This document shows positions 4,681 to 59,708 of a DNA stretch of 64,000 nucleotides, piece after piece (position 1 is the stretch's first letter; each line of letters opens with the position of its first letter). The notes below the pieces were generated by a model. That model saw only the letters and a list, made by a program, of their open reading frames with translations. It was not told where the DNA came from and searched no databases. A program made the position numbers and the translations under genes. This stretch comes from Liolophura sinensis (lineage: Eukaryota > Mollusca > Polyplacophora > Chitonida > Chitonidae): contig NC_088299.1 in assembly GCF_032854445.1 (NCBI RefSeq), positions 11,651,608-11,715,607 of the forward strand. Reading direction: 5' to 3'.

Positions 4681-4775
<95 letters not shown>

Positions 4776-13924: not shown

Positions 13925-15720
13925 CAACCCTATGAATCACTAACAGCACCACTGGACTCATTTCAGAACTACGATGTTGAATCACTCACAGCACCAATGG
14001 TCTTATTGATGAACTAGGATGCTGAATCACTCACAGCACCATTGGACTCATTGATGAACTAGGATGCTGAATCACTCAAAGCAGCATTGGACTTATTGAT
14101 GAACTACAATGCTGAATCACTCACAGTACCAATGGATTCATTTAAGAACAAGGATGCTGAATCACTCACAGCACCATTGGACTCACTGAAGAACTACAAT
14201 GTTGAATCACTCACAGCACCAATGGACTCATTTCAGAACAAGGATGCTGAATAACTCACAGCACCACTAGACTCATTGAAGAACTACAATGCTGAATCAC
14301 TCACAGCACCAATGGACTCATTTCAGAACAAGGATGCTGAATCACTCGCAGCACCATTGGACTTATTGATGAACTAGGATGATGAATCACTCACAGCACC
14401 ATTGGACTTATTGATGAACAAGGATGCTGAATCACTCACAGCACCATTGGACTTATTGATGAACTAGGATGCTGAATCACTCACAGCACCATTGGACTCA
14501 TTAAAGAACTAGGATGCTGAATAACTCACAGCACCACTGGACTCATTGATGAACTAGGATGTTGAATCACTCACAGCGCCACTGGACTCATTAAAGAACT
14601 AGGATGTTGAATAACTCACAGCACCATTGGACTCATTAAAGAACTAGGATGATGAATCACTCACAGCACCATTGGACTTATTGATGAACAAGGATGTTGA
14701 ATAACTCACAGCACCATTGGACTCATTAAAGAACTAGGATGCTGAATAACTCACAGCACCATTGGACTCATTAAAAAACTAGGACGTTGAATAACTCACA
14801 GCACCATTGGACTCATTATAGAACTAGGATGTTGAATAACTCACAGCACCATTGGACTCATTAAAGAACTAGGATGCTGAATAACTCACAGCACCATTGG
14901 ACTCATTAAAAAACTAGGACGTTGAATAACTCACAGCACCATTGGACTCATTATAGAACTAGGATGTTGAATAACTCACAGCACCATTGGACTCATTAAA
15001 GAACTAGGATGCTGAATAACTCACAGCACCATTGGACTCATTAAAAAACTAGGACGTTGAATAACTCACAGCACCATTGGACTCATTATAGAACTAGGAT
15101 GTTGAATAACTCACAGCACCATTGGACTCATTAAAGAACTAGGATGCTGAATAACTCACAGCACCATTGGACTCATTAAAAAACTAGGACGTTGAATAAC
15201 TCACAGCACCATTGGACTCATTATAGAACTAGGATGTTGAATAACTCACAGCACCATTGGACTCATTACAGAACTAGGATGTTGAATCACTCACAGCACC
15301 ATTGGACTCATTAAAGAACTAGGATGTTGAATAACTCACAGCACCATTGGACTCATTAAAGAACTAGGATGTTGAATAACTCACAGCACCATTGGACTCA
15401 TTATAGAACTAGGATGTTGAATAACTCACAGCACCATTGGACTCATTACAGAACTAGGATGTTGAATCACTCACAGCACCATTGGACTCATTAAAGAACT
15501 AGGTTGCTGAATAACTCACAGCACCATTGAACTTATTGATGAACAAGGATGCTGAATCACTCACAGCCCCATTGGACTCATTATAGGACTAGGATGTTGA
15601 ATAACTCACAGCACCATTGGACTCATTACAGAACTAGGATGTTGAATCACTCACAGCACCATTGGACTCATTGAAAAACTAGGATGTTGAATCACTCACA
15701 GCACCATTGGACTCACTAAT
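13925..15720 (-). repeat. 45-bp minisatellite, about 40 copies, grown from the SCARB2-like stop-codon region
   Basis: Tandem array with a strict 45-bp period, equal to 15 codons. Read on the minus strand each unit resembles ESNGAVSDSTS-stop-FFN, which is the receptor C-terminus itself. Units differ at a few places (aataactc/aatcactc, gttg/gctg, ttaaag/ttatag/ttgatg). From about 14740 to 15240 three variant units form a 135-bp higher-order repeat present about four times. The array would lie in the 3' UTR of the receptor mRNA unless polyadenylation is very early; no clear site was chosen. Confidence 0.9.
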
Positions 15721-15777
15721 AATAGGACTCATGTCATCGTCTGTGCTCCCACTTGTGTACAGTTTCAGCCTCCGAAA
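15679..15777 (-). CDS. SCARB2: SCARB2-like coding exon 13 (cytosolic tail; ends inside the 45-bp array)
   Basis: Residues 478-509 plus a TAG stop. Tail begins FRRLKLY, contains DDDMSPII (acidic di-isoleucine, compare ERAPLI in LIMP-2) and ends SESNGAVSDSTS. The last 11 or so codons and the stop are the first unit of the 45-bp array that continues through the 3' region to about 13925. Acceptor gtctcttacag is strong. Confidence 0.78.
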   Translation of the reverse strand, partial: FRRLKLYTSGSTDDDMSPIISESNGAVSDSTS

Positions 15778-18700
15778 CTGTAAGAGACAAAAAAAAAACC
15801 TATAATGCTTATATTCAGTGATCAATTACTTTCCTACAGTTGCTGTAACATGCTCTGTGAGGTGCTCATATCAAAGCCTCATTCTGGCCCGAGTTTTAGG
15901 TTGATGAAGAAATAACAGATAAAACGAACAAACAATGTATTAGCTTTATATTTTATTCATTTTCTGTGTCTTGTAAGTTTGAATATTAGCTTCTCAGCAG
16001 TACGATGAATATACCTTGCACAGGTTACTTTCCTCCTCTCTACTACACAAGGCAATCAACAGAATCATGTGAAAGTCTAACACATCAAATCTATCTGGTT
16101 TCAAAGTGACAGCCCACTCGGCAACTGATACTTTTGTCCAATTGTGGCAGCTTTTATGAAGAAGCTGTTGGAGATTGACCAATCACACGCACCAGTACAA
16201 AAGTGGGCAGACTACACTTCTGTCAGCATTAAATTTTCCATGAAATTTCTCCGTTTCGCACTGATTGAGTAGGGCAAAGGAATGTAATATAAGTTAAATC
16301 CACTGCTGCATAAGGTAATTAATAATTATGGCTCCGTCTGTTGTACATGGTTTACCTTTTAAAGGGGTAAAGCACACCTCTAATTACCTGAGATTCCTGA
16401 GACTTTGAGAGCAAAATCAAGATGACAACAAAGCACACAAAGCTCCCTACAGCAATGAGGGAATACTGGACTGCCTGGGTGATGGTGAGAGGGACAAACA
16501 GCTGAGACTTCAACATGGCTGCCGTCTTGTCATCCACAACAGCACTCTGAGTACAAAACAATGAATAGGTTAAAAGCAGCACATTCATGGCAATGAATGA
16601 GTCAATAGCCTAACTGATTGATTGATTGATGGTACCCAAGAATATTGCCTTAAAATTCAGTGCAATAAGTGGATGAAACCAGAGGGTTCGAAGTAAACCA
16701 CTGAAGCTCCCTGTTTCATGAAACTTAAGATCAGTAAATTGCTTGGATTCAGCAGATCCTCTATGCAATGTAAAAAATGTAAATGATGAAAAATGACCTC
16801 AGTCCCGGTTTCATTCCAACTGGTCAAGCGAATGCATAAATAGTATGTATGTACCACACTCCCCCTTGCACCATGCCTTACGCAGAATTAGGTAAACCAA
16901 GAGAAGAATGCAATGAAGTTACTTGCAATTTATTTGATGTTACTGGTTCAGAATTACTGCACTGTCATCACATTTAACAAATAAATACACGAAAGCAATG
17001 TAAAGGGAACAGGCCTCATGGATGCTCAGTCATCAGTACACTGACAGATTCAGGATCTATGAAACCTATAATCTGATTGGTATTTTATGCTGTACTCAAG
17101 AGTATTTCACATGTATGACAGAGGCCAGCATGGTTATGGTGGTGGGAAACCAGTTATTTTATAGTTTACCTCATTTATCCACATTACAGGCATGGTTAAG
17201 TTCCTGATGTTTTTTAGTTGCCTGTAACCAAAAAAAAAATACTCACATAGTGATTTTCTGAACAGTTGAACTTTTCTGTTGAGAGGATAGATTTTATACT
17301 CCACCAAATAAATGTATTACAACATTGTTTTAATGTCAAACTACATGCACATACTTTAATGTATTTGCTATGTAGTGCATCCAAATCCAATGACAGCTTT
17401 CATAACCATAATAGACCTCTATTCAAATGTGCACTCTATTGTTTTCTTACACCAATTTTATATTTTCTGTGCACCTTTTCTAGTGAAACAGTCAGCCACT
17501 TAAAAAGTATACTGCTGTTTTAGAGAAATACGCCCATCCTGAAATGAATGTTACAATATGTTGGAAATATCCAACTTGATAACATTTAATGTCTTGTAAG
17601 TAAGTAAGTAAAGAGGATGTGATATATGCCATGCTACAGGAAAGCTAAGAATGTGATATATAGGACACCAGGTGTTGGATGTGCCACTGTGTATGATATT
17701 GTAAGTTTATGGCTACAAATAAATTCTTATGAAATATACTTACTGAATTTCCTTCATCTGAAGCATATAGAGGTTGATCTGTAATCGCTTAGACACTTCC
17801 AAAACAGCGCCCGTGTACTGCAATATGAAATATTAATGTAGACTTAATTTAAAAAAAAAAACGTTGGAATGTGTCAAGGGGAGACAGCCTTGATCAAACT
17901 GGGCACACTAAAGGGGAGATAATCAAATAATATCAACCTTAAATTCCATAGGCAAAACCTTTTTAAATTTTGAAAATCTCTAACTGTTTCAATTTATACA
18001 AAGGAATATTGGTGAAATTAATTACTGCTCTGAATGACATACTAACATCATACAAATTAATTACCACAAGCCTACATATACATGCAGAATCTAAATTAGA
18101 CTAACAGTATGCACAGGACTGCGTTACGCATGAATGACTTACTGGTTCCACATCAACATCTGTGCGATGCCACTCAGCATTTGGGTTCATTCCATCCACA
18201 GCCTTCACTATATGCTCATCAGCCATGTAGAAATGAGGGAAGGACACGATCACAGGACCATGGAAACCGTCCACTGATGAAACAAATACGGAACAATTTC
18301 ACAATTCTTAGGGCACAGCAGAACAAGAACCTTGTACAGCTATGGTAAAGAGATTTGCTTGTGAATAACACGCAAAACAAAAATTAGGTCAAATTATCAT
18401 GCTATAAAACTGAGGTGACAAAAATCGAAGCTGAGAGACACGACTAAGAAAAGTGACACCAGGACACCAGAACTTCCATAACTTTAACACACTGTGTGGT
18501 ACCGATGCCTGAACTCACATAATATCTTGCATGGTGTGATATTGGGCCAAAAGTCATGTATATGTACTTAATACACTGTGTGATATTTGGGCAAGAGCTC
18601 AATCAACTTTCACAGTGTGATATGAGTGCCAGAACTCAAGTAACTTAGACTGTGAGATACTGGAACCACAACTCCAAGTAATTTACACTGTGTGATCTCA

Positions 18701-21700
18701 TAACCTCAGCTTAGGTTATTTATACTGTGTCATATTAGGGCCAGAAGTCAAGTAACATACACTGTGTCACACAGTGGATGTTGCAAATCACCCAACTGAC
18801 ACTGGGTAATCATAAGGAGTTTTCAAAATAAAAACTGCTATAATGGGTGGGCCAGAACCCACAAAACTGACACTGTATGTGTGATGATTAGAACTCACAT
18901 AAATATGGTAAATGACATGTGATACTCACAATCAAGAAAACCTCAATATAGAAAAGGGAAATACCACATGAAATTTACTTTATGGATACTGCAGAGGCCA
19001 GAACTGTGATACTGATGGAGTCAGAACTCACATAACTGCTACTGTGTCATAGTGATGGGACCAGAACTCACATAATTGCCAGTGTGATACTGATGGAGCC
19101 AGAACTTACATAACGGCCACTGTGTGATAGTGATGGAGCCAGAACTCACATAACTGCTACTGTGTGATAGTGATTGAGCCAGAACTCACATAGCTGCCAT
19201 CGTGTGATATTGATGGAGTCAGAACTCACATAACTGCCAGTGTGATATTGATGGAGCCAGAGCTCACATAACTGCCATCGTGTGATACTGATGAGGCCAG
19301 AACTTACATAATGGCCACTGTGTGATATTGAGGGAAACAGAGCTCACATAACTACCACTGTGTGATATTGATGGAACAAGAGCTCACATAATGGCCACTG
19401 TGTGATATTGATGGAACCAAAGTTCACATAACTACCACTGTGTGATATTAATGGGACCAGAGCTCACATAACTGCCACTGTGTGATAAATCATGGAGCCA
19501 GAACTTGCATAACTGACACTGTTTTATACTGAGGGAACCAGAGCTGTAATATAACTGACACTGTGTGTACTGATGGGATCATGATTCACATAACTGACAC
19601 TGGATGATATTGAAGGAAACGGAACTCACATAACTGACACTGTGTGATATTAAGAAGACCGGAAGGCAAGCAGTTTGTCTGCGGAGTACAAAAGCCCAGA
19701 TTGTCAGGGTTGACAGAAACATTGGCTAACTCATTGGCTGTGGAGCTGTATCTGTGTAAGTGTATGCCCTGTGAAGTGTACACATCCCCACTGTACACTC
19801 CATACACTGATCTGAAAATACACAAATACAAACACATAGAGATACACCTAGTATAACATGCCTAGTATTCACCTGACCATGCCACCCCAAACCTTGATCC
19901 ATAGAGGATACTGTACAGTGAAGGTTGAACACCATAAACATTGCTCGAGTGAGAGCTGGACATGATATGAAATGAAATGGGTTTTCATTTCCACCTTTCA
20001 TGAGAGCAATATTTATGATATTCAAACTTCACTGTGCAATATTCTATTTATTATTTATATTTCGATAATATGATGATTCTGTGTATTTTGAATATTTGTA
20101 TATTGAATGTTTTAGTTGCAGGCCTTCACAGCATGTAAATAGGCTGATGTTGTGTATGGCGTCTTGTATGACGTCTTGTATGACATCTTAATTTGTTTTG
20201 ATGTGCGATGTTAGCGTGTTAAAGTTCACAAAACCTGCAATGTGACGTCATCCTGCTGAGCTCCAATTGAAACATCATGTTTCGTTTTTTTGACGTTTTT
20301 GATGGGTATGAAATATCCAAATGTAATAACAAAAGTGATACATGTATCTACATGTAACTGAGTGAAATATCACATTAATCAGCGATGGAAACAATGACAT
20401 TTCACCTTTATATGAATAATAAAATGACAAGTATATCCTCACCTGCAAATATCAGTGGAAAACATATGAAGAACAACGTCCTTCTTCAGAAATGGAGGTG
20501 CGACAGTCCCATCTGAAGAAAATCCAAATCGGTACATGCATGTTTAAGTTAAATTTAGTAAGTGCCAATTCAGACTCACTGGCTCTAGTTTCATGTAGCA
20601 TGTTTACAGTTAAGTAGCTCCCATTAGCTAAGTACATGCACACTTCTTATCTCTAGTACATATGTTGTCATGATAATTAAGGGTTTACTTAGCTGTCAGT
20701 GCACTCTATGAAACTGTCCCGAAGAATAAAAGGACAATATTATCAACGTCAATTTTTATTCTGTTAACAGTTTACATACATGTACAAGAAATGTTGGGTA
20801 CCACTGATCATAAAATACTGGTACTAGTTCATTACCCAACATATGTTATAGTGGACAATGTCACCAAGCATGGTGCACCAAACTGGTACACAATGCTTGG
20901 TAACACTGCACACTATAACAAATGTTTGGTAATGTTATATGTACAGGCCAAGTACTGGTACACACCATGCTCAGTAACACTGTACACTATAACAAATGCT
21001 TGGTAATGTTGTATGTACAGGTCAAGTACTGGTACACACCATGCTTGGTAACACTGTACACTATAACAAATGTTTGGTAATGTTGTATATATACAGGTCA
21101 AGTACTGGTACACACCATGTTTGGTAACATTGTAGACCATAACATCTGTTTGGTAATGTTGTATGTACAAGCCAAGTATTGGTACACACCATGTTTGGTA
21201 ACACTGCACACTATAACAAATGCTTGGTACTGTTGTATGTACAGGCCAAGTGTTGGCACACACCATGTTTGGTAACACTGTACACTATAACAAATGTCTG
21301 GAAATATATGTACAGGTCAAGTACTGGTACACACAATGTTTGGTAACATTGTACACTATAACAAAGGCTTGGTAATGTTGTATGTACAGGCCAAGTACTG
21401 GTACACACCATGCTTGGTAACACTGTACACTATAACAAATGCTTGGTTATGTCCTATGTACAGGCCAAGTACTGGTACATACCATGTTTGGTAACACTGT
21501 ACACTATAACAAAATGTTTGGTAATGTTGTATGTACAGGTCAAGTATTGGTACACACCATGCTTGGTAACACTGTACACTATAACAAATGCTTGGTAATG
21601 TTGTATGTACAGGTCAAGTACTGGTACACACCATGTTTGGTAACACTGTACACTATAACAAATGTTTGGTAATGTTGTATATACAGGCCAAGTACTGGTA

Positions 21701-24700
21701 CACACAATGTTTGGTTACATTGTACACTATAACAAAGGCTTGGTAATGTTGTATGTACAGGCCAAGTACTGGTACACACCATGTTTGGTAACACTGTACA
21801 CTATAACAAATGCTTGGTTATGTCCTATGTACAGGCCAAGTACTGGTACATACCATGTTTGGTAACACTGTACACTATAACAAAATGTTTGGTAATGTTG
21901 TATGTACAGGCCAAGTATTGGTACACACCATGTTTGGTAACACTGTACACTATAACAAATGTTTGGTAATGTTGTATATACAGGTCAAGTACTGGTACAC
22001 ACCATGCTTGGTAACACTGTAAACTATAACAAATGCTTGGTAATGTTGTATATACAGGGCAAGTACTGGTACACACCATGCTTGGTAACACGGTACACTA
22101 TAACAAAGGCTTGGTAATGTTGTATGTATGGGCCGAGTACTGGTACACACCATGTTTGGTAACACTGTACACTATGACAAATGCTTGGTAATGTTCTATG
22201 TACAGGCCAAGCACTGGTACACACCATGCTTGCTACTCTGGACTGAACGTGACTATTATAACAGGTACAAAGAATAATGGTAATGGACTAGGGGTGAGAG
22301 CGTCTGCCTCGTAATTCAGAAAATCTGGTTTAATCCTAAACTGGGTCAAGCCAAAAAAGCTTATCTAGAAACCTTGACCAACCGAGTGTATAGGAGAGAG
22401 ACAGAACTACTGACCTGTGCCATTAATCATATTTGCCCATTGTGTTGACCAGTATGACAGAGAGCTGAAAAGATCAGACACAAGAGTGAAGGATACAACA
22501 TTTATACACTAAAAGCAACAAAAGACTTGTTGAGAGGTCAGAAAAGCTACTCATGACCCACATTTCATCAATGACGCACATCCTATTTGCAGAAGCAGGG
22601 TGTCTTTAGCCAATATTTATTTATTTATTTATTTATTTGATTGGTGTTTTACATGGCACTCAAGAATATTTCACTTATACGAGGGCAGCCACATTATGGT
22701 GTGAGGAAACCGGGCAGAGCGTGATGGAAATAAATGACCATCTGCAGGATGCTATGAGAAAAGGAGAAATCCTGCAATGATTGTTACACAACAATGAAAA
22801 GACACTCAAAATATCTACACATTGCAAGCAAACATAACCAGCTAAACTCTGTGAACGCATAACCATCACCAATAACTCTTTAAAAACAGTTATCATGTAT
22901 ACATGTACAGTTGTATACAGAAATATTGTATCAACGTAGCAGAGCTAAGGTTAGTCTAAATTTATAGAACTTTTCCAGCAACCTGCGGATGGTCTTAGGT
23001 TTCTCCTGGGCTCTGTTCAGTGTCCTCAGACCATAATGTTGGTTGCTGTTTCATTAGTGAAACATTTTTGAATAAGGTATGTGTAAAACACAAATCAAAT
23101 AAATAAATAAACAAACATTTATAACATTTGCAACTGTTTCTTACCTGCTGCCATTGAACTTGTCAATAACTCCCACTTTAGTCAAGTCATTTTCTCCAGT
23201 AAAGACTGTGTAAGTACCATCATATGAGTTGTTTTTCTGTAGCACAAAATGTTTTTGACATACTGTGTCACTCTTTTTTTCACGTGACACATTTTGCTTG
23301 ATTCTAACTGACTAATCAACCTAATAGGGCCACTTATGAGTTTGCGTAAAGTGTGATTAATTTTTCGTTGAAAAAATGTAAATGTTGGCTATAAAAGTAT
23401 CATTTTAAGGTTTTTGTGTGCCTTTGATATTACTTTTCAAACATTAGGTGAAGCACAGTAAATTTTATGTAAATCTAGCTCGTCCAACTCAAAATTGTAT
23501 TCCTCTTGTTTTCCTGAAGTGTAACACATGACAAAGTTTATTTCATGAAAAACATTTGGTACCTTTACCACAGTTACTCAAGATGCATCGATTTGGTCCA
23601 CTGTGGATAGGATTAGGGCACTGGAGGAATCATAGAAGGCCAGAAGTGTCCATCGTCCATTGCCAGGTACTTCACAAAACTGCATCTGAACCAGCCAGAG
23701 CTGGATTTGAACCTGCAACTGGTCAAGAGCAGATCATCTGTGGTGGCGAAACTATCACTTTATTTGATTGAGCCAGCTGAAGCCAATATCATTTACCTAC
23801 CCCAGCAAAGTATCCAGCTATGTTTGTGTAAAACCACTTCTTGTCTATGGCCTGTCCTGCTGACAAGAGGTTATCCTTGTAGCCCCAAATAAGCTCTTTA
23901 ACAGTTTTGTTGTAAAACAAATTCTCCTTGGCTCCAGCAATGACCAATGATATTACAGTTTGGATGAAAGGGCTCTGCCACTTGAAAGATTCTGCAAGGG
24001 ACTGTGGAAAAAAATGTTTGTTTATTGACTTGATTGGTGTTTTACCTAGTACTGTAGAATATTTCGCTTATATGATTGTGGCCAGCAGTCATGGTGAAAC
24101 GAAGCTGAGCAGAGCTTGGTGAAACTCACAGCCAACAAAGAAAAAAACACAGAGTTAAAACAGCAGAAACTCACAAGCTTAGTTCCTTTGTTTTATGTAA
24201 ATTAGTAGCATGACAAGAAGAGCTTTGTGGATTGATCTTATCTGTGTTTACTGTTGAACAATGTTTCACATTTTGTGATGAGTAGAGGAAACCAGAATAC
24301 CCAGAGTAAGCCCTTTGCCAGGAACCAGACAAACCCTCTAGTTTAACCTTCGATGAGAACAATACTCAGGGGCCTCTGTCCCTCAGTTGGTTAGCATGGT
24401 ACAGCAGCGTAATGACCCAGGAGCCTCTCACCAATATGGTCGCTGCAAGTCCAGCCCATGCTGGCTTCCTCTCTGACCGTATGTGGGAAGGTCTGGCAGC
24501 AACCTGCGGATGGTTGTGGGTTTCCCCTGGGCTCTGCTCGGTCTCCTTCCACCATAATGTAATACTTATACAACCACGTTGTATAAGTAAAGTATTCTTG
24601 AGCAGGGCGTAAAACACCGATCAAATAAATAAATAAATAAAGAATAACACTCTAGGCCATCGCTAAAAATTGTTTGTTGGCTGTAACCCAACTGACCTTC

Positions 24701-28017: not shown

Positions 28018-29048
28018 TTTGCTCTGAGTCTCTCAGCCTTTACTCTGTCATCGTTTTATCTGAAAAGGAAGCAGAAAGCATTACATGTAGGCCTAAAGAC
28101 ATACAGGCTACTATATTTACCCTTAAAAAATCATCCCCAAAAGTGTGTTTTAGAGGTAATTAAAGGTCAGAACATATTACCTTTTGTGCTAAAATTTATA
28201 TTTTTCCCATGTGATCATAACCTAAAAACAAAATGCCAAACAGTGCTCAAAGATTTTAGGTGAAATAAAGCAGCTATATGTATTTAAGCATTAGAATTAT
28301 CTTTATTCACCTTACATAAGGATAAATATATACCTCTGGACATTACATGTGTACGGCCAGGGTAAAGTCTGGTGAGAGATGTATACATGTACAATTATTG
28401 TTCAGAAATAGGCCATGAGTATACTGTCATTAAATAAATCTAACACGTAACACGGAACATACATGTAATTATACATAAAAATATCTGTATTTGGACAAAT
28501 TACTGGACTAGAGAAACTCTAATGTGTATTATACTTCCAACTTCCTTACATCTATACATGTACATGAATGATGAACCACGTTTACCAGTGGGAGCTTTAC
28601 CTGTCACCTCTATACCTGCATTCTTAGACATAATATCAAAGTTTCTCACAAACTATATAACCTCCTGACCTTTCACAGAAAGCTCCCTCACAGTTTTAAA
28701 GAGCTGCATGTAGCTACTCCAGCCTTAAGAGAAACTAGACTGCATGTTTAAATTATAGTTTAATTTAAAATAAGAGCCTACAGCCTCAGTCACACTTGAA
28801 TAAATCTGACATACCTGAAATTCAGTTAAGGCTAGGCTGATTAGAGCCTATTGTTTTTGTTTCCCTTTAAGCGCGGTAATTCTGTTAGAATCTCTCCTCA
28901 ATTCAGACAAAAAAAAACTGAGAGCACAGGAATCTTATGTGGTTATACTAAACATGCAGTAATGGGTGCAGGTTTCATGAGTAACACCGACCCTGGATGT
29001 AACATCACGGAAAAAGAAACGTTTTCCTTCAACTCCTGGACTAGAGCA

Positions 29049-29126
29049 ACTCTAATGACCATTCACTGTAAAAATAAATGCACAATATCTTGTGCATTTA
29101 TTTTTACAGTGAATGGTCATTAGAGT
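29049..29126. repeat. Perfect palindrome, two 37-bp arms with a 4-bp loop
   Basis: Left arm 29049-29085 and right arm 29090-29126 are exact reverse complements around the loop tatc. Arms begin actctaatgaccattcactg. A related fragment (ctggactagag then aactctaatg) occurs at about 28505. It could be a recent foldback insertion or a small-RNA hairpin; it lies in the 5' intron of the receptor gene. Confidence 0.9.
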
Positions 29127-31359: not shown

Positions 31360-31570
31360 ATTTTTTAGGTGACACATTTTGTTTTGTCTTAATTAATTCA
31401 TACACCTTATTGGGTCACTTTGGGAGTTTTTAGGGAGGTTTAATATTTTATCACAAAAACTTGAATGTTGGCATCAAAAGTATCATTTTAATGCCTTCGT
31501 GTGGTTCTGAAAATACTTTGTTATGTGTCAAACTTTTCGCAAATACAGTAAGTGAGATGTAGGGCAGTAT
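31360..31570. repeat. Dispersed repeat, copy 2 (mate at 23268-23480)
   Basis: taggtgacacattttgtttt through aaaagtatcattttaatgcc; moderately diverged from its mate. Confidence 0.6.
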
Positions 31571-31719
31571 GTGTGACACGTATGCTAAATTTATTTCTGT
31601 CTGCTAGAGAATGTGGCTACTTTAAAGGTATTGTGGTGAGCTCAGGAGGCTTTGTTTCACTTGGCTATTTGGATGTGTAACTATTTGATCATGATTAAGT
31701 GAAGTTTTTTATTTTTTAG

Positions 31720-31788
31720 TATGTCACTAACTCATCTGGCTGAATGTTTAGATATGGGCTGAAGCAGTGGAAACTGCTGTAGACCACA
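31720..31788 (+). promoter_or_regulatory. ANKRD27: ANKRD27 5' UTR segment with a short upstream ORF
   Basis: A strong acceptor (gttttttattttttag) ends at 31719, so the first coding exon probably begins at 31720. An ATG at 31721 opens a short upstream frame that closes with TGA about 40 bp later, before the real start. A weaker acceptor near 31750 (gaatgtttag) would remove that ATG. Which is used is not decidable by eye. Confidence 0.4.
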
Positions 31789-31890
31789 ATGTCAAGATAT
31801 GATGAAGATCTGCTGGAAAACCCCTTTTACCTGGGCCTACAGAATGAGCATAAGGAGCTCTTTGTGACCGCTACAGCCAACAGATGGATT
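31789..31890 (+). CDS. ANKRD27: ANKRD27 coding exon 1
   Basis: Residues 1-34, MSRYDEDLLENPFYLGLQ onward; close to the human N-terminus. Donor gtaagt; phase 0. The open frame continues 417 bp into the intron, which is not coding and includes a foldback element. Confidence 0.9.
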
Positions 31891-37698: not shown

Positions 37699-37729
<31 letters not shown>

Positions 37730-52700: not shown

Positions 52701-55700
52701 TTTAATTCTCATGGTAAACATGTTGGTATATTGTGTAGAAAGCCAGAGCGGATTCCATAAAGTCTGTGAACAGCAGAAAGTTGAAACGAACCAGAACGGA
52801 GAGTAAGCAATCTACAGAGTCTAGCACAGACAGTGATCTGGTCCAAGATTCTACTGACAGCAAAAAGGTGGATAAACTTCTCAAGGCTGTCAAGTCCAAC
52901 GACGTGGAACTGGTATATAACCTCTATTTCTTTGTCCTCCAGGCGTTCATGTCGGTGACTGATTCAGATAGATCTTTCGAGTTATTATGTCATGACTGAG
53001 TGACGTCCACCCAAGCCCGCCATTCATAAGATTCATCTAATCCAGTTTAATTTGTTTTCTGTGTTCTGTGCACCATCCCAGGTTAACATTGGCAGATTGA
53101 GCCTACTGTGCCATATAGTGACATTCTCCTGTCACAAAGGGGCATTGCGTCAAAAAATGCGCTTATTGGTTGGGCATATGTACATGTGGATTTTGTAACT
53201 ATTGTATCATCATTATTAGATATTTAAGTATTCCTGTTAACATGTACTGTATTTAGCAAACGCTACATGTACGTATACTGAATGTAAAGCACATACATCC
53301 GTGGCAGAGGTGGTTAGCGTGCCAGCACGGCACAAGGACCTAGTAGTCTCTAACCAATGCAGTTGCTGTGAGTGAAAGTCCAGCTCATGCTTGTACCTGG
53401 GAAAGTCTGCCAGCAACATGTTGATGGTTGAAGTACGACTGTAAACCCTAAGCACCCACTCACTCATGCTGATGGTCGTGTGTTTCCCCCTGTGTTCGGC
53501 CTGGTGTCCTCCCACCATAATGCTGGCCTTCGTTGAATAAGTGAAATATTCTTGAATACTACATAAACACCAACCTAATGAATAAATCAATAAATCACAT
53601 GCTTGTACATGCGTACATTTAAGGGGGTACAGACTTGATGCTGATTGGCTAACAATGGAGATAGGGTTGCCGGGAGCTAAACTGTGCAACTTTGGTCACG
53701 CTTGAATAAATCTGCTATACCTAAAATTCAGCTAAGGCAAGGTATAACCTGGGCTTGCCTATCTTTAATGCCAACCTGTCAGAAACAATTCTGTACCCCT
53801 TTAAGATTGATAATGAGTTTACCTCATTTCTGTCATTTTGTCACCTCTAGTTTATCAGACCTTGTGATATATTCCAGGTGAGGTTTTATCTGGGTTGGAC
53901 TGATGATTCTGAGGAAGATGCTGAGATTGATTTCACCCGTCCCCTGTGTCACCCGTTGTGCCAGTGTGAAAAATGTCAGCCCATACAAAAGGTAATGCTC
54001 TGCAAATACATATGATGTGATGTAGTACTTATTATTCGCTGGAATTTATTTTTGTGGATTTTCTCCTAAAATATGTTCGCGGGAAATAATTTTCGCGTAT
54101 TTAAGACAATACTGAAAAGCAAAATCTTCCAAGATATAATATGGCCGAAATTATTGAAGCACGTCAAACAGGTATCATCATGGGTGGCTTTAATCCTCCT
54201 TTGTTTCCTTCGTTGTCGCTAATCCTCGTGATCTGGATCAGAGATTAAAACAATGGGGAATGGATTATCACTACATAAGAAGATTACTTTTGCATCTACC
54301 GTGAGCAGTACTCAAATAGGTGTCACTTCTTTTGAAATCATTGATGAGTACTTTTGAACACCTTGCAAAGTCACCTGTCACCTTTTGAGCAGTTTAATGC
54401 AAAACATATGAATTCACCATTATCGGAACCAGTCACTCATTCTTTATCAAGCAACACAATAAGTTTTGCATGGTTTTCAGTTTTAATTGTCCTCTGTAGC
54501 AGGTCAGAAACCGCAAACATTGCCGTGGCTGTCAAACGGCCAATGTGTTGTTGTTCACACTTCACAATATGTTAGAAGCTCACTCATTGGACCACAGGAG
54601 AGACACAGCCAATGGGATAGCGGGTATCAGAGTGACATTCATTAGAAGCCAGAATGTGCTGGCATCTAGTTTTCTTTCACTTTACGGGCATAGGGAACAC
54701 TAATCAAACTAAAGACGAACGAACTCCCACTTTGTTTTATACCCACCAAGCCTTAGCACCAGAGTTTGTATATATTTAAACCATAATTTCCCGTGCCTGC
54801 CATTAAAAAATTTAGCTGGCCCATCTTCTGGGAAAGATTTCACTTCATTATTTCTACTACCTTTAGTATGTGACTCAATATTTGATATTTTTTTCGCTGG
54901 ACTTATTTTTCGGGTTAAATTATTGAAAGCGAAAATTAGTTTGGCTTGAAAATTAAGTACTGCACAGTGTCTCATGTTATTGAACATACAGATATGTAAT
55001 AAGAAAAAGTAATATCCCCAGTGATCATAACATGTAGTATCCCTAATACATGTAAATGACTGTTTATAGTATCTCCAGTGATTATGTGAATGTACATGTA
55101 ATATTCCCAGTGGTTTCAATTAGTGGGATATTATCAGTAATCTGCATGTAATATACATTTACATATGTAATATCCCTAGTGATAGTGCTAATGTAGTCTG
55201 GGTGGCTGCTGTGTCATTAGTATTTAATGGGTTGGTGTTTTATAGAATACTCTTAATTATAGCTCCTCCGGCCATACGTGGGAAGGTCTGCCTGCAACCT
55301 GCGTATGGTCAGAATTGTTTCCCTTGAGCAGTGCCGTGTTTGCTCCAATTTAAATGCTGGCTGCTGTTGTATAGGGGAAATATTCTTGAGTATGACGTAA
55401 GCACCAATCAAATAAATAAACAAAAAAAATAAATAATTATAATCATACATGAAAATGGTTTCTGCACGACAGTTTTATTAAAAAAAGGAAGTAAACATCA
55501 AAAATTCTACATGTAATAGTTACAAGTAGTGCCTTTTTCCTGTTTGGTGACAAGCTTGTGGCATAGTTACATGTACATGTTGTGTTCAAATGCTGTGTTC
55601 TGTGCCATCATGAGACACGATATCTGTCATGGTTTTTGTTCACAGCACAACAGCTCTAGTTCAGGTGTTCATGTGAACAGTCAGAATGCAGAGGGCATGA

Positions 55701-58700
55701 GTGCCCTTCACGTGGCAAGTGTTCATGGTCACGTGGAGCTGGTGGACCTGATTGTCCACAAGGGAGGTAACCTTGGGGCTCAGACGCAGACACAGACCAC
55801 AGCTCTTCATCTTGCCACTGAACAGGGACATCTCAAGGTAGGGTTCTTATGGTAGCCATTAAGCATAAAATTTTAATGTCCATTAAATGTACAATCTACA
55901 ACACTGTAGAATTGAAGAGCAAAAATAACAGGGCCGGAATGACAGAATTAAAAACAAATGGGGTGGCAGCTGTAATATATTTAAAGAACAAGCAAATGTA
56001 TAAAAATGCGAGTTGTGGTGAGAGCGAAAGTGTGGCTGAAAGTCTTCTAATTGGCGAAAGAAAGAAAAGAAAAAAAATTTAATGCACATGTGTTGGTTAG
56101 TATACTAATAAGAAGGTATTGAATGTTTGTAGCTTTTGCTCATTTACATGTACATGTATGTACCAGTAGGATATCATGTTAGAAGAGAGACTGTTCAGCC
56201 ATTTAAAGGGCACTCCACCCATAAAATTCTCTGTCATTGTATAAGAGAAAAAATCTCATGTGCAAACGTTCAACCTTTAACAACATTTAAATAAATGCAT
56301 CATAAACAAGTAGGAGTGAAAAACCTCATGAAAGTTCCCATGAACTGTCTTTGATAGTAATTGTTTTAGTGTTGCTTGGAAATTTTAAAATAGTCAATGG
56401 GTTTATAACTGCATACCAACGATGATTATCGAAATCGTAGTTTTTAGATACGGAGTTTCAGTTTCAAGGTGTGGTTAGTTCTTGTTGCCACCGTTTACAA
56501 TTAGTGAAAAGTCTTATGAAAGTATGCATTAACTGCAGTGTGTAATTTGTAGCCATCCTCAAAGTAAATCAGTCTTGTCATTATTAAATGTTGTTATGTC
56601 ATTATTCCTTTATCTGCTTCTCATGTAGAAATATAAATCTAGCAAAATTCACATGTTGCCCAACCTGTAATGGGTGCACTTGTTGTTTGACAGGTTGTTC
56701 AAATTCTGGTGGAGAAAGGAGCTAAGCTGAACACAAGAGATTATCAGGGAAACACACCTTTACACCGGGGAGCAATGACAGGAGCAGTAGATACCGTCCG
56801 TTATCTTATACAGGTAGAAACAAAACTAGTTGGCTGTTGTGATTTCAGTATATTTTTATCCCATAATTTGCGACAGGCTCAGAACAAATGAAAATTACAC
56901 CACTCGTGTAATGAATTTGCTGGGTCATTCATTATATATCCTCAGTGTATATTTATTTTATCAGATAATGTTTCACATCCCGGTTTTCTCCCATCATAAT
57001 GCTGGCCGCCTTCGTATAAGTGAGATATTCTTGAGTACCGCGTAAAACACCAGTCAAATAAATAAATGTTTGTTTCGCATTCATGTAGAGTGGGACTAAA
57101 TACTACAGGCTTTCTGTTTAAGTTGGAGATAAGTTTCAGAATAACAAACCCATGGGGTATCTTGTGAAGACAGACATCTTAATGATCAGAGTCATGTAAT
57201 AACTAAATCCTTGCATGAAATTTTAATCATGCGCACTGGAAACAGCTAACCAGCTTAGGAAGTTATACCAGAAGTTCATTACCTAGAAGTGTACAACTTC
57301 CCTATAGCTAGTCTCCACGGCACTTTACACTTTTCTTCCATCTCAAACACATTATGTGACGTATCTGCGCAGCCATGTATTTTTTTTTTCTCTCTATTGC
57401 GCAGCTAAAGTTTGAGAAACAACTGATGCACGGTGGGATCCAAACATGGTTGTGTTGAAATAGACAACAGACAGAGTGTTTTGTGAGAGGACAATAATGT
57501 CTTTGATAGTAATTCTTTAAGAGTTGCTTGGAAATATTAAAATAGTCAGTGAGTTTATAACTGCATACCAACAATGATTATCGAAATCGTAGTTTTTAAA
57601 TATGGAGTTTCGGTTTCAAGGTGTGGCGAGTTCTTGTTGCAGCTGTTTACAATTATATTTCCCATGATTCAGCTCATAATTTCCACCCAAGTGGTTGGCA
57701 TGTTTCTCCAGCAGGTGGCGCGAGCTTCTACTGGTGACGTAACATGTGTACTGTACCTGTACCATGGAGAGCTATAGGGAAGTTGCATACATCTAGGTAG
57801 TGAACTTCAGGTTATGCATGTATACCAGCTGTTGTTGCTGTTGTTACAGAGTGGGGCCAACTATAACCAAACCAACTTCCGTGGGAACAGCCCTCTACAT
57901 GAGGCAGTGTCCGGTAACAAGCTGGAAGTGGCCAGGGTGTTGCTGGAAGCTGGAGCCTTCGTCATGGTGACCAACAATAAGCATCTGACCCCGCTACAGT
58001 TAGCTGTGGTGAGCACTCAGAGTGTGTAGATGGCACTGGCTGACGTTTGCAGATTTCACGGGCTAAATCACCGAGTTAATCAAGTATCTGTAAAACCAAT
58101 TAATGATGAAAGGAATGAAATTTTATATCAAAGAACACAGACGCAGTAATAATTGTACGCTTATGTAAAGAGGAATACTGTGTTAAAGAATGATAGAAAA
58201 GCGTTCAGGATAGTGACAGTGAAAGAAGAGATTAAAAATCATTGATAGTGATTTGATAGTGATATATGTACATGGAAGTGTAATAACTTGAGTTCTTGAA
58301 ATCACTGAAGTGTTGACTTCACGTACATGCAGTGGGAACGGGGATTGCATGGCAAAATACTCAAAAGACTGTTTTACTATTGCAGGACAAACCGATGCAC
58401 AAGTTATTAAGTATGCACCTTCAGCAGATCGTGCCTATGTCCCCCATGCAAGCCCCTTACTCCCAGGAAGTTGGGACTGTGGTGTCATCGGGTAAGTACA
58501 GTTGCTATGTAGTCAGCAGGTCGTGCCTGTGTCCCCCATGCAAGTCCCTTACTCCCAGGAAGTTGGGACTGTGGACTCTGGTAAGTACAGTTGCTATGTA
58601 GTCAGCAGGTCGTGCCTATGTCCCCCATGCAAGCCCCTTATTCCCAGGAAGTTGGGACTGTGGTGTCATCGGGTATGTACAGTTGCTATGTAGTCAGTAG

Positions 58701-59708
58701 GTCGTGCCTATGTCCCCCGTGCAAGGCCCTTACTAAAAGGAGGCTGGGACTGTGGTGTCATCTGGTAAGTACAGTTGTTATGTACAGTTATCAAATTGTG
58801 CCTACATGCAGTCCCCCATGCAGACTTGCTACACTTGATTTTCTGTTTGCATATGGTTTGGATATGTTTTGTTCGCACCATCGCGTCTAAAGGGGTAAGA
58901 TGGAAACATTGTTTGCTCGAGGATTGTTTTAAAACACTTAAAAAAAAAAAATCCAACAACATCTGTTGACAGTGCCATATGCGTCAAAAAGACTTGTAAC
59001 AACTTTAGGAAAAGATATTCTGTGTTATTCACCCTGATTTTAACACAAATTTCTATTTTAGATTTTTCCATCTTTTGCTGAAGAATGTGTTTAATTTTGT
59101 TCACTCAGTGTGATATTGCCGAGCAAATCTGTACAAATCGGTGCATGTTTCAGTTTATTATTTTGCAATTTTTCATTGTTTTAGGGCCTCATACTGACCA
59201 AACCAAGATGAAGGGCTCCTCCAAAGAAAGGAGTCCATCAGGTAATGCTGAGGTTGTGAAGATGTTTGGCCAACAAAATGGGATAGTACCAGGAAGAGAG
59301 TTGATTTCACCTCAAGCTGATGATCTTGGAGGTGGAACAAGTTTGGAAAGGAACATTGTTAAGTCTGGTTCGGGAATCATGAAGGAGAACGTGGGTGAAT
59401 CCTCTGGTGCAAATAATACTCAGTCCTCTGACAAGGCAATCTCAAGGACGCCAGCAGCCTGTACTAATAACCTGAATAGTCCTGAGATCAGATACTCCTC
59501 ATTTGAGGATATGATTCAGAAAAAGTCCTGTACAGAGGACATCTTGGCTTGTAATCAGGTGTTGGATGAAAGCAGTGAAAGGGACACTGAGGTGACTGTC
59601 ACAGGAACTGGAGTGACATTAACATCTGCTATGGCTGAAAATCAGGAATTTGTTACAGGGAAATCTGTGGAAACATCAGCAGAAAAAACTGCTTTAGATT
59701 GTGGTTGA
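31789..59708 (+). CDS. ANKRD27: ANKRD27 (VARP): VPS9 and ankyrin-repeat endosomal trafficking protein (26 coding exons)
   Basis: Reconstructed from 26 exons (listed separately); every junction phase agrees and the product is 1126 residues (human 1050). Order: conserved N-terminus YDEDLLENPFYLGLQ; VPILFEE block (95-101); VPS9 domain about 223-385 with the DDFLP acidic pair at 327-328 and Tyr368; first Cys4 motif CHPLCSCDKC (462-471); first ankyrin block about 492-640; Ser/Thr-rich linker and KKVDKLLKAV (VAMP7-binding region in human); second Cys4 motif CHPLCQCEKC (746-755); second ankyrin block about 770-945; a long, poorly conserved C-terminus. Family knowledge: VARP activates Rab21 through VPS9, binds Rab32/38 and VAMP7 through ankyrin regions and retromer VPS29 through the two 'Zn-fingernails', and drives endosome-to-surface recycling. 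All these parts are present, so the same role is expected. Introns carry SINEs and two exon-edge minisatellites. Confidence 0.95.
32068..32224. mobile_element. Foldback (MITE-like) element in ANKRD27 intron 1
   Basis: Imperfect palindrome over its full 157 bp: tatagggcctatgagag at the left matches the reverse complement of ctcccataggtcctata at the right; inner arms ggggggcgct/agcgccccc and ggaagttggg/cccaacttcc pair too. Confidence 0.7.
32718..32837 (+). CDS. ANKRD27: ANKRD27 coding exon 2
   Basis: Residues 35-74; contains FQDHILVPFPDC, aligning with FESYILIPVEEH of human VARP. Acceptor attattttcag, donor gtgaac; phase 0 at both ends. Confidence 0.86.
33493..33552 (+). CDS. ANKRD27: ANKRD27 coding exon 3
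   Basis: Residues 75-94, KISIEDNAVKTGKGFQLEQS, aligning with DVFIQGNRIKLGAGF of human VARP. Acceptor gtgtttgcag, donor gtaatt; phase 0. Confidence 0.83.
33841..33931 (+). CDS. ANKRD27: ANKRD27 coding exon 4
   Basis: Residues 95-125, VPILFEEVFYNNSDESYRV, nearly identical to the human block. Acceptor ctttttgttaaag; donor gtttgt, ends in phase 1. Confidence 0.88.
34540..34742 (+). mobile_element. Family A SINE, degenerate head, in ANKRD27 intron 4
   Basis: Recognisable from atgacccaggagcctctgac through gtgagttcaagtccagctca to the AAAT tail; the box A part is eroded. Confidence 0.8.
34823..34943 (+). mobile_element. Family A SINE, 3' half, just upstream of ANKRD27 exon 5
   Basis: From ggatggtcatgctttcccat to the tail cggcataaaacaacaatgaa; ends 25 bp before the exon 5 acceptor. 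Confidence 0.75.
34969..35049 (+). CDS. ANKRD27: ANKRD27 coding exon 5
   Basis: Residues 125-152, an acidic linker (DETVPEEDRPESPHSFEDC). Poorly conserved; supported by acceptor ttggtttag, donor gtcagt and matching phase 1 to 1. Confidence 0.78.
35559..35804 (+). mobile_element. Family A SINE, near full length, in ANKRD27 intron 5
   Basis: ggcctctgtagccgaggggg head, box B gtgagttcaagcccag, tail cgtgaagcatatatcaaata and AAAT repeats; part of the middle is deleted. Confidence 0.85.
36083..36177 (+). CDS. ANKRD27: ANKRD27 coding exon 6
   Basis: Residues 152-183, helical segment TLDKTLMTFLQAYDNLEGE preceding the VPS9 domain. Acceptor gttatgtag, donor gtgaaa; phase 1 to 0. Confidence 0.82.
36434..36590 (-). 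mobile_element. Family A SINE, partial, in ANKRD27 intron 6
   Basis: attatttatttatattgatt, ggtgttttacgctgtgttaa, and ggaggaaaccgggcagaacc; 5' tRNA part missing. Confidence 0.8.
36660..36719 (+). CDS. ANKRD27: ANKRD27 coding exon 7
   Basis: Residues 184-203, DVAVAQFTKAMQIVLKDSTV, aligning with the human HIDSANALYTKCLQQLLRDS helix. Acceptor attctgttacag, donor gtaaga; phase 0. Confidence 0.84.
37188..37244 (+). CDS. ANKRD27: ANKRD27 coding exon 8
   Basis: Residues 204-222, ending NLKLAVE (human NLMKQAVE), just before the VPS9 core. Acceptor gcgatgtttcag, donor gtatgt; phase 0. Confidence 0.84.
37704..37730. repeat. (TA)n microsatellite in ANKRD27 intron 8
   Basis: About 13 TA dinucleotides. 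Confidence 0.9.
37788..37930 (+). CDS. ANKRD27: ANKRD27 coding exon 9 (VPS9 start)
   Basis: Residues 223-270; HTLHKKLFRSISSCVASQD opens the VPS9 fold, with LQLKDMGIKQQF matching LQQKDIGVKPEF of human VARP. Acceptor ttttaatgccag, donor gtgagt, ends in phase 2. Confidence 0.92.
38875..39014 (+). CDS. ANKRD27: ANKRD27 coding exon 10 (VPS9)
   Basis: Residues 270-317; IPAAKRELSKLNKYSTPLGK is a hallmark VARP segment. Acceptor catgttacag, donor gtgaga, phase 2 to 1. Confidence 0.93.
39441..40341 (+). repeat. About 77-bp minisatellite, 12 copies, repeating the ANKRD27 exon 11 acceptor and 5' end
   Basis: Unit contains gttgtgtgttacag|ttactgagccagtgggtatgttatccactgattatttatga split here only by the acceptor mark; eight of the twelve units keep the full tgtgttacag acceptor and four have lost it. 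The exon itself (from 40342) is the thirteenth, diverged unit. In exon phase, units read V-T-E-P-V-G-M-L-S-T-D-Y-L-stop against V-E-E-Q-V-D-M-L-T-T-D-D-F-L in the real exon. Confidence 0.9.
40342..40426 (+). CDS. ANKRD27: ANKRD27 coding exon 11 (VPS9 acidic pair; acceptor inside a tandem array)
   Basis: Residues 317-345; VEEQVDMLTTDDFLPILIF holds the conserved VPS9 acidic pair and ends KSEVPNW. Its acceptor (tgtgttacag) and first 40 or so bases match the unit of the 77-bp array directly upstream. Donor gtaagt; phase 1 to 2. Confidence 0.9.
41214..41279 (+). CDS. ANKRD27: ANKRD27 coding exon 12 (VPS9)
   Basis: Residues 345-367; MANLVYMKNFHFAKSS and DEYG correspond to MANLSYIKNFRFSSL and DELG of human. 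Acceptor ttttcttttag, donor gtaaga; phase 2 to 2. Confidence 0.92.
41585..42090. repeat. About 23-bp minisatellite in ANKRD27 intron 12
   Basis: Around 21 copies of acaaatgcaagcagcccgag plus tat/tac, with two longer blocks containing ctgttcagttataagcagcc. Not related to either flanking exon that I can see. Confidence 0.9.
42208..42295 (+). CDS. ANKRD27: ANKRD27 coding exon 13 (VPS9 end)
   Basis: Residues 367-396; YFLASIEAALEHIETGRL completes the VPS9 domain, Tyr368 at the conserved tyrosine position. Acceptor tccattttcag; donor gtattt is chosen over an earlier gtacaa because only it gives phase 0. Confidence 0.87.
42460..42545 (-). mobile_element. Old family A SINE fragment in ANKRD27 intron 13
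   Basis: ggggtgttttataaagacta, gtatttcacttacatgtata and gtgggtgaaacc; strongly diverged. Confidence 0.45.
43115..43225 (+). CDS. ANKRD27: ANKRD27 coding exon 14
   Basis: Residues 397-433, a Ser-rich linker (RQDSNSSASGNSAIETLFQ) between VPS9 and the first Cys4 motif. Acceptor tctcccacag, donor gttagt; phase 0. Confidence 0.82.
43595..44050. repeat. 33-bp minisatellite in ANKRD27 intron 14
   Basis: About 13 copies of a unit containing atgtctgaaatacacggaca followed by tgagagagcattt. Period is a multiple of three, so several frames stay open through it; these are not genes. Confidence 0.9.
44051..45485. other. ANKRD27 intron 14 remainder; nothing recognised
   Basis: No repeat family or coding frame seen apart from the array before it; simple AT-rich intron. 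Confidence 0.4.
45486..45675 (+). CDS. ANKRD27: ANKRD27 coding exon 15 (first Zn-fingernail)
   Basis: Residues 434-497. Contains CHPLCSCDKC (Cys462, 466, 468, 471), a VPS29-binding Zn-fingernail in the family, then PFSRDDRGYT leading into ankyrin repeats. Acceptor ttatgacag, donor gtactg; phase 0 to 1. Confidence 0.95.
46256..46395 (+). CDS. ANKRD27: ANKRD27 coding exon 16 (ankyrin block 1)
   Basis: Residues 497-543; two ankyrin motifs, ALHVAAVYGQAGMIDIL and APLHLACHRGF. Acceptor attttgtttcag, donor gtatgt; phase 1 to 0. Confidence 0.94.
47080..47172 (+). CDS. ANKRD27: ANKRD27 coding exon 17 (ankyrin block 1)
   Basis: Residues 544-574; LLLLHFRADPTV and GNTPLHLCAANGHED match the human LLLLHYKA and GNTPLHLACTYGHED. 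Acceptor tctgttccag, donor gtgagt; phase 0. Confidence 0.94.
47780..47888 (+). CDS. ANKRD27: ANKRD27 coding exon 18 (ankyrin block 1)
   Basis: Residues 575-611; CVKALLFFD and GDTPLHLAAKWGY, as in human CVKALVYYD and GDTPLHIAARWGY. Acceptor ttctatcatcag, donor gtatgt; phase 0 to 1. Confidence 0.94.
48012..48156 (+). mobile_element. Family A SINE, internally deleted, in ANKRD27 intron 18
   Basis: tcaagtccagctcatgcaag through gtgaaatattcttgagtacg; the tail is missing after ggcc. Confidence 0.72.
49385..49462 (+). mobile_element. Family A SINE 3' tail, in ANKRD27 intron 18
   Basis: gagtgaaatattcttgagta, cagtgtaaaacaccaatgaa and AAAT-like end. Confidence 0.75.
49955..50115 (+). CDS. ANKRD27: ANKRD27 coding exon 19 (ankyrin block 1 end)
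   Basis: Residues 611-664; IVEALLENGARVDIRNRKK closes the first ankyrin block, followed by a linker. Acceptor catgatttcag, donor gtgagt; phase 1 to 0. Confidence 0.9.
50529..50969 (-). pseudogene. Tyrosine-recombinase (Crypton-like) C-terminal fragment in ANKRD27 intron 19
   Basis: A 146-residue frame with a recombinase-type block: YTNHCLRATAAITLNQTGV, then SITGHQEESSLRSYIWPYEE. This fits the C-terminal catalytic part of tyrosine recombinases (H-x-x-R, then G-H, then a Tyr nucleophile), as in Crypton transposons and recombinase-derived host genes. Nothing recombinase-like was found before it at 51000-52000, and the frame tails off into low-similarity sequence, so it is a truncated relic. Assignment to Crypton rather than another tyrosine-recombinase element is inference. 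Confidence 0.6.
51959..52300 (+). mobile_element. Family B SINE in ANKRD27 intron 19
   Basis: Head cttcgttgacttaatggtta, box B-like region tcaggagatcaaaagcctgg, body ggactcaccctgcctcaaga, and 3' tail gctgaaaaattgctaagtat then gacgttaaaccccaag. Confidence 0.75.
52739..52912 (+). CDS. ANKRD27: ANKRD27 coding exon 20 (inter-ankyrin linker)
   Basis: Residues 665-722. Basic and Ser/Thr-rich linker, then DSKKVDKLLKAVKSNDVEL, aligning with the VAMP7-binding portion of human VARP. Acceptor tattgtgtag, donor gtatat; phase 0. Confidence 0.85.
53294..53596 (+). mobile_element. Family A SINE with an internal insertion, in ANKRD27 intron 20
   Basis: Head tccgtggcagaggtggttag, box B-like gtgagtgaaagtccagctca, then about 50 bp including taaaccctaagcacccactc (a family C-type tail fragment), then the family A 3' end. 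Confidence 0.8.
53878..53991 (+). CDS. ANKRD27: ANKRD27 coding exon 21 (second Zn-fingernail)
   Basis: Residues 723-760; VRFYLGWTDDSEEDAE then CHPLCQCEKC (Cys746, 750, 752, 755), the second VPS29-binding motif. Acceptor atattccag, donor gtaatg; phase 0. Confidence 0.94.
55261..55437 (+). mobile_element. Family A SINE, 3' half, in ANKRD27 intron 21
   Basis: ctccggccatacgtgggaag through gacgtaagcaccaatcaaat and an AAAT tail. Confidence 0.78.
55646..55837 (+). CDS. ANKRD27: ANKRD27 coding exon 22 (ankyrin block 2)
   Basis: Residues 761-824; SALHVASVHGHVELVDLIV and TALHLATEQGHLK. Acceptor tttttgttcacag, donor gtaggg; phase 0. Confidence 0.94.
56344..56501 (+). repeat. Direct repeat, copy 1 (about 158 bp)
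   Basis: Matches 57496-57655 closely, including gcataccaac[ga]atgattat, cgaaatcgtagtttttaa/ga and gtttcaaggtgtgg. The pair flanks ANKRD27 exon 23. Confidence 0.8.
56694..56813 (+). CDS. ANKRD27: ANKRD27 coding exon 23 (ankyrin block 2)
   Basis: Residues 825-864; VVQILVEKGAKLNTRD and GNTPLHRGAMTG. The usual ankyrin Ala/Cys after H is Arg here. Acceptor ttgtttgacag, donor gtagaa; phase 0. Confidence 0.93.
56978..57066 (+). mobile_element. Family A SINE 3' tail, in ANKRD27 intron 23
   Basis: ccggttttctcccatcataa through gcgtaaaacaccagtcaaat and AAAT repeats. Confidence 0.78.
57241..57835. mobile_element. Element with terminal inverted repeats, just upstream of ANKRD27 exon 24
   Basis: 57270-57320 (gaagttcattacctagaagt and acaacttccctatagct) is the reverse complement of 57764-57812 with few mismatches; flanking aacagct/agctgtt may extend the repeats to 57241 and 57835. 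Inside lies a segment that also occurs at 56344-56501. Confidence 0.6.
57496..57655 (+). repeat. Direct repeat, copy 2
   Basis: Same segment as 56344-56501, here within the inverted-repeat element upstream of exon 24. Confidence 0.8.
57850..58008 (+). CDS. ANKRD27: ANKRD27 coding exon 24 (ankyrin block 2)
   Basis: Residues 865-917; GNSPLHEAVSGNKLEVARVL and VTNNKHLTPLQLAV. Acceptor gctgttgttacag, donor gtgagc; phase 0. A foldback repeat ends just upstream of its acceptor. Confidence 0.93.
58386..58491 (+). CDS. ANKRD27: ANKRD27 coding exon 25 (donor inside a tandem array)
   Basis: Residues 918-953; DKPMHKLLSMHLQQIVPMS onward, following the last ankyrin repeat. Acceptor tactattgcag, donor gtaagt, ends in phase 1. 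The last 70 or so bases and the donor recur three to four times immediately downstream. Confidence 0.83.
58421..58800 (+). repeat. About 92-bp tandem repeat, 4-5 copies, repeating the ANKRD27 exon 25 end and donor
   Basis: Copies begin at about 58421 (inside the exon), 58513, 58602, 58694 and, degenerate, 58791. Each carries the coding-like cgtgcctatgtcccccatgc block, aggaagttgggactgtgg, then a donor: gtaagt at 58492, 58581 and 58765, gtatgt at 58673. Confidence 0.92.
59185..59708 (+). CDS. ANKRD27: ANKRD27 terminal coding exon 26
   Basis: Residues 953-1126 and a TGA stop. Low-complexity, Ser/Thr/Glu-rich tail; RYSSFEDMIQKK may align with the RHTVEDAVV segment near the human C-terminus. Acceptor cattgttttag; phase 1. 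Weak conservation, but the frame is open for 522 bp and continuous with exon 25. Confidence 0.83.

Follow-up and report, generated by a model that had tools for sequence, protein, structure and literature searches.

Why does an exon edge of one of two genes lie inside four of the minisatellites in a 64,000-nucleotide stretch of the Liolophura sinensis genome (the whole stretch analysed, hereafter the window)? We think it likely that these are ordinary minisatellites, each arising from a founder duplication that by chance took in an exon edge and was tolerated. The alternatives are that exon edges themselves start tandem amplification in this lineage, that repeated splice sites are kept by selection, or that the arrays are artefacts of assembly.

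The genes concerned are a SCARB2-like gene of the CD36 family and ANKRD27, lying head to head with start codons about 3.8 kb apart (28017-31789). To locate them, the window was compared with human SCARB2 and ANKRD27 as queries, first by homology and then with a purpose-written spliced alignment, after which exon edges were corrected by hand using the reading frame and GT/AG. The coding spans are as follows.

15679-28017, minus strand: SCARB2-like gene, 13 coding exons, 510 codons including the stop.
31789-59708, plus strand: ANKRD27, 26 coding exons, 1110 codons including the stop.

Both models form a single open frame with its sole stop at the end. Pfam recognised CD36 in the SCARB2-like product (E 6e-153) and VPS9 and ankyrin repeats in ANKRD27, and the SCARB2-like product matched lysosome membrane protein 2 in the PDB (E 4e-99); an Rfam search of the window gave no match at gathering score. 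The two models comprise 78 edges, 74 of them splice sites, and 4860 bp of coding sequence, in agreement with the earlier note, which had put coding sequence at about 4.9 kb of the 64 kb. In ANKRD27, two CHPLCxCxxC motifs (CHPLCSCDKC and CHPLCQCEKC, at 45486-45675 and 53878-53991) align with those in the human query.

These gene models are predictions from genomic sequence and homology. SCARB2 exon 1 and ANKRD27 exons 25 and 26 were set by eye from open frames, and the donor of ANKRD27 exon 14 was picked so that the frame stays open. Of these, exon 25 bears an array-borne edge, and the spliced alignment had not found it. Its placement, in frame with the exons on either side, was made on its splice sites (acceptor 3.0, donor 6.6) and open frame more than on similarity to the human protein, which is slight. 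Several exons proposed by the spliced alignment were replaced, as they gave no single open frame with their neighbours: 30992-30917, 28333-28311, and 23679-23671 in SCARB2, and 44224-44261, 59520-59591, 62455-62478, 63427-63501, and the pair 52739-52761 and 52795-52912 (as two exons) in ANKRD27. The starts or ends of some other exons were likewise replaced. For ANKRD27 exon 11 the spliced alignment placed the acceptor before 40354, a site that would keep the frame too; its score, however, is -5.3, and that of the site before 40342 is 1.5.

TRF reported 28 rows in the window, which became 13 minisatellites once rows belonging to the same array were merged and periods below 10 were dropped; rows 18572-18767 and 19005-19651 were merged after a common unit was noticed, and the count would be 14 if they were kept apart. 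Four of the 13 are intergenic, leaving nine in the gene span. An exon edge lies inside four, as had been proposed from the letters of the DNA for four of "twelve or so" arrays, and the units of these four measure 45, 40, 77, and 92 bp. These arrays, delimited by TRF and unit alignment, and the exons whose edges they carry are listed here.

13933-15719, minus strand: 45-bp array, 40 units, running from the C-terminal end of the SCARB2-like coding sequence and its TAG stop into the 3' flank.
15679-15777, minus strand: SCARB2-like last coding exon (13), final 41 coding bp inside the array, stop codon 15681-15679.
18500-19651, minus strand: 40-bp array with the SCARB2-like exon 8 donor, clear units 19651-19005, degenerate to about 18500.
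19630-19811, minus strand: SCARB2-like exon 8, donor AGTTAT|gtgagt after 19630.
39433-40372, plus strand: 77-bp array with the ANKRD27 exon 11 acceptor, the last unit being the working copy.
40342-40426, plus strand: ANKRD27 exon 11 (VPS9 domain), acceptor gttacag|TTGAAG before 40342.
58421-58784, plus strand: 92-bp array with the ANKRD27 exon 25 donor, 4 units and a degenerate fifth to about 58840.
58386-58491, plus strand: ANKRD27 exon 25, set by eye, donor CATCGG|gtaagt after 58491.

In all four arrays the working copy is the terminal unit at the end that faces the exon, and the array extends outward from it into non-coding DNA. Read in the direction of the gene, the working copy is thus the first unit for both donors and the stop, and the last for the acceptor. 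The self-similarity of the four edges was confirmed by local alignment of the 60 bases around each edge with its flank, scored against 3336 control points outside arrays: the SCARB2 stop, the exon 8 donor, the exon 11 acceptor, and the exon 25 donor scored 54, 38, 40, and 56, respectively, where the 99th percentile of the controls was 19.8. Weaker tandem copies were sought in the same way at the other 74 edges, and none of the 74 reached the control 95th percentile (14). The window also contains a 21/42-bp array downstream of the SCARB2-like gene (12574-13071) with a strong skew of G over C (0.56, plus strand), a perfect (TAAA)24.5 microsatellite at 4681-4778, and a long array wholly within SCARB2-like intron 6 (20882-22232; 74 bp, with a 371-bp higher order) whose nearest exon edge is 182 bp off.

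The SCARB2-like stop array probably lies in the 3' UTR, because the first AATAAA or ATTAAA sequences past the stop on the minus strand, at 13352 and 13254, are beyond the array. Its unit of 45 is a multiple of 3, and a reading frame carried through the array meets 36 in-frame stops in all. The array-borne C-terminal residues directly follow the sequence DDMSPII in the tail of the protein (15777-15679, minus strand), which we take to resemble a sorting signal of the acidic di-leucine type. At 15147-14742 (minus strand), a three-unit block of 135 bp is repeated about four times in nearly identical form, as if a higher-order expansion had taken place recently. In the exon 8 array, 22 coding bp are followed by the donor and then by intron, and degenerate units occupy most of the 1356-base intron 8; this intron and ANKRD27 intron 10 are mostly array. 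The last unit of the exon 11 array holds the acceptor and 31 coding bp. In the middle of this array (39510-40090), 77-bp units alternate with four 68-bp units, giving a 145-bp higher-order unit, and the four 68-bp units lack the acceptor A and adjoining bases. The exon 25 array has 71 coding bp and the donor in its first unit, the working copy.

How similar the units are along the two longest of the four arrays is consistent with ordinary turnover. Identity to the unit consensus in the stop array was 0.84 for the exon-side unit, 0.96-1.0 for units 7-23, and 0.80-0.91 for the last 12, and along the exon 8 array it ran from 0.80-0.85 through 0.82-0.93 to 0.53-0.75. These two arrays, the longest of the four, thus have a homogenised core and diverged ends, the usual pattern of tandem-repeat turnover, in profiles that favour the core to some degree, since the consensus was drawn by majority from those very units. 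Divergence in the exon 11 array is confined to the exon unit (0.66 against 0.83-0.99), and in the exon 25 array, which has just four units, a gradient from core to end is not clear.

Taken together, these features suggest a simple course of events. A tandem duplication across a donor, an acceptor, or a stop would leave one complete edge in place, and because one complete edge always remains, such a duplication should be nearly neutral. The extra copies would land in the intron or the 3' flank, where they could grow and shrink in number by slippage and unequal exchange, while coding constraint would hold the working copy in its terminal, exon-facing position. We infer the exchange mechanism, the neutrality, and the use of the terminal copy in splicing.

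Whether four overlaps are too many for chance depends on what is placed at random. When whole arrays were scattered over the window, 4.93 of the 13 were expected to include an edge, against four seen (P of at least four, 0.81), and within the gene span the expectation was 4.88 of nine arrays (P of at least four, 0.88). Since whole-array placement expects 4.9, four overlaps are ordinary by this measure. The earlier note had argued for an excess from the small coding share of the window, and that argument fails: it is array length relative to exon spacing that sets the expectation, and long arrays among 39 exons would be expected to touch about five edges by chance.

A different result was obtained when each array was collapsed to one unit, its founder. 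This founder-unit null, which we regard as the fairest to the idea of edge preference and which fits the mechanism of minisatellite growth better than the whole-array null does, expected 0.83 overlaps in the window (P 0.0067) and 0.82 in the gene span (P 0.0051), with four seen. For splice sites alone, with three seen, P was 0.038 in the window and 0.037 in the gene span. Restricted to the seven larger arrays of the gene span, leaving out a 12-bp array and a two-copy 46-bp array, the same null expected 0.71 (P 0.0025; splice sites only, 0.023). Barring founders from lying inside exons gave 0.87 (P 0.0064), placing arrays in non-coding DNA with a coding overlap of at most one unit gave 0.93 (P 0.008), and taking the higher-order periods as founders gave 1.56 (P 0.049). 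What survives of the claimed excess is therefore nominal significance under founder-type nulls (P 0.0025 to 0.05), in tests of a hypothesis drawn post hoc from the same data, in one window, and with a stop codon counted as an edge.

These founder-type results are the main argument for the best surviving alternative, namely that exon edges in this lineage set off tandem amplification. A first duplication might, for instance, be made easier at splice junctions by the sequence, by chromatin, or by transcription-linked breaks. It also draws some support from amphioxus, where arrays of this sort are on record from several genes unrelated to one another, with a mechanism that the passages cited call unclear (PMC3087553; PMC3902484). 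Counted per base, however, the sign is reversed: arrays are scarcer at edges than in the remaining non-coding DNA, with 4 of 78 edges in arrays compared with 15.7% of the non-coding bases of the gene span (6421/40916; binomial P of four or fewer, 0.004), and with a tandem score at 13-15% of 4000 control points. The clean background at the other 74 edges, with no weak tandem copies, likewise speaks against it, and the test was made after the pattern had been noticed.

Nor do the four arrays share the marks that a common edge-linked start might have left. Initiation by R-loops at splice junctions had been proposed, and this signature was rejected for want of a common GC skew: on the coding strand the stop, exon 8, exon 11, and exon 25 arrays have skews of 0.12, -0.06, 0.38, and 0.07. 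A start at the splice consensus itself, the other suggestion, finds no echo in the units, where the edge has no common place (the 45-, 40-, 77-, and 92-bp arrays include 41, 22, 31, and 71 coding bp, respectively). The proposed mechanism is thus not supported over ordinary minisatellite turnover. The excess over founder-type expectations is suggestive, it is seen under those nulls only, and what remains after turnover is either some edge preference or luck in one window. Overall, an edge-linked start appears unlikely to us, and one window does not establish exon edges as starters of such repeats. Its far-reaching form is quite unlikely: minisatellites in this lineage would begin preferentially at exon edges, roughly five times as often as the founder-unit expectation, and many genes would carry rows of copied splice sites from which cryptic exons and new introns could arise at any time.

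Minisatellites that happened to span an edge would be expected to carry copied splice sites, and such sites are present, as judged by sequence, in introns 8, 10, and 25. Scored with a generic splice matrix of our own making, nine donor-like sites in intron 8 equal or exceed the working donor (2.8), and the density of such sites is 7.7 per kb in the intron 8 array compared with 1.6 per kb in other introns. The three repeated donors of intron 25 score 6.9, 3.8, and 6.9, against 6.6 for the working site (58894, also listed, did not arise as a copy of it), and eight repeated acceptors in intron 10 score 0.4-1.25, against 1.5. An in-frame stop would lie in the retained sequence for 20 of the 21 listed intron 8 sites (4 of the 21 are beyond the array), for two of the three repeated intron 25 donors, and for all eight repeated intron 10 acceptors. 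The exceptions are site 19590 in intron 8, which would add 40 bases, and one intron 25 donor, which would add 89, and each of these would shift the frame. Nearly all of these decoys, if used, would therefore be predicted to give a premature stop or a frame shift.

Such copied sites and the in-frame stops that follow most of them are what might be said for selection, in which repeated splice sites would be kept as decoys because they delay or control splicing or direct some of the transcripts towards decay. Copying alone would produce the same sites, however, and amphioxus papers state or suggest, in the passages cited, that splicing across comparable arrays is regular (PMC3087553; PMC3902484). 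We looked for selection on the copied sites as extra conservation of GT/AG in the units of introns 8 and 10, and none was seen. The donor GT is kept at 0.93 in 15 core units of intron 8, where the mean of all columns is 0.875 and 55% of columns are equally well kept. In the 12 decoy units of intron 10 the acceptor G is kept in all 12 and the A in 8, with a column mean of 0.92, so that 4 of the 12 lack the A. Thus the predicted row of decoy sites does exist, with GT/AG columns no better kept than the rest of the unit and no mark of the selection that had been suggested to maintain it, and we consider this explanation very improbable. Tandem arrays are prone to misassembly. An assembly or haplotype artefact affecting array lengths or even the edge copies, for which one amphioxus globin array described by its authors as aberrantly assembled in a draft genome offers a precedent (PMC3087553), is the least probable explanation and scarcely credible here, since the units are told apart by many private changes, arranged in orderly higher-order patterns, and each gene forms one open frame throughout; the copy numbers given are approximate.

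Tandem arrays that span exon edges have been described in amphioxus under the name "mirages", in Adh3 and the globin genes BflGb6 and BflGb9 (PMC3087553) and in troponin C and PGBD5 (PMC3902484). According to the passages cited, splicing proceeds regularly in spite of the mirages in Adh, globin, and troponin C, and the same is suggested for PGBD5 (PMC3087553; PMC3902484). The arrays reported here resemble them in several ways: mirages are minisatellite-like, their units span an intron/exon boundary on the donor or acceptor side, unit lengths are of the same order (10-160 bp), and AG/GT occurs in many units (PMC3087553; PMC3902484). Homogenised clusters with excluded ends, reported for mirages (PMC3087553), are seen here in the stop and exon 8 arrays, with a less clear picture in the other two. 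All four of our arrays are tandem and minisatellite-like (units of 40 to 92 bp), and the unit spans an exon/intron boundary at the SCARB2 exon 8 donor, the ANKRD27 exon 11 acceptor, and the exon 25 donor. The array at 13933-15719 differs in that it repeats a stop codon, the coding end within the last exon, and not a splice site. Three of the four arrays therefore match the known anatomy of mirages, and the stop array is a relative of them and not a strict member. The two sets also differ in the data available: amphioxus mirages have been examined by RT-PCR and give regular products (PMC3087553), whereas the arrays here are known from the sequence of one haplotype.

Human genes provide further parallels. 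The 31-bp VNTR of CBS, with alleles of 16-21, is written c.1444_1467+7(16_21) (PMC2630376). We read this name as 24 coding and 7 intronic bases, and hence as a repeated donor. The title of one paper reportedly links the VNTR to CBS activity. In the same gene, a 68-bp insertion creates a second copy of an intron/exon junction, and of the resulting pair of sites one is strongly preferred in splicing (PMC2630376). The VNTR therefore repeats a donor, as arrays here do, and the insertion copies a junction; the difference is that these are single loci in a vertebrate and known polymorphisms (PMC2630376). The minisatellite of human IFI6 (6-16) supplies several splice donors (PMC4526556, citing Turri 1995), which are used and give several mRNAs, whereas our donor copies are recognised by their sequence. 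In human segmental-duplication genes, novel introns may come from variable tandem repeats located where exon and intron meet (PMC2812944), and tandem duplication is discussed as a source of introns (PMC4974935; PMC3087553). The likeness to our arrays lies in the tandem repeats at edges, and the link to new introns belongs to those cases. Among molluscs, an intronic minisatellite is described in abalone and is not said, in the passage cited, to span an edge (PMC6905558).

The cases described here thus add loci to a published kind. Edge-spanning arrays multiply splice signals beside the working site and so offer natural tests of how a choice is made among similar sites. It has also been proposed that new introns and exons originate from them. 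That four such arrays occur in two neighbouring genes is good reason for a genome-wide count.
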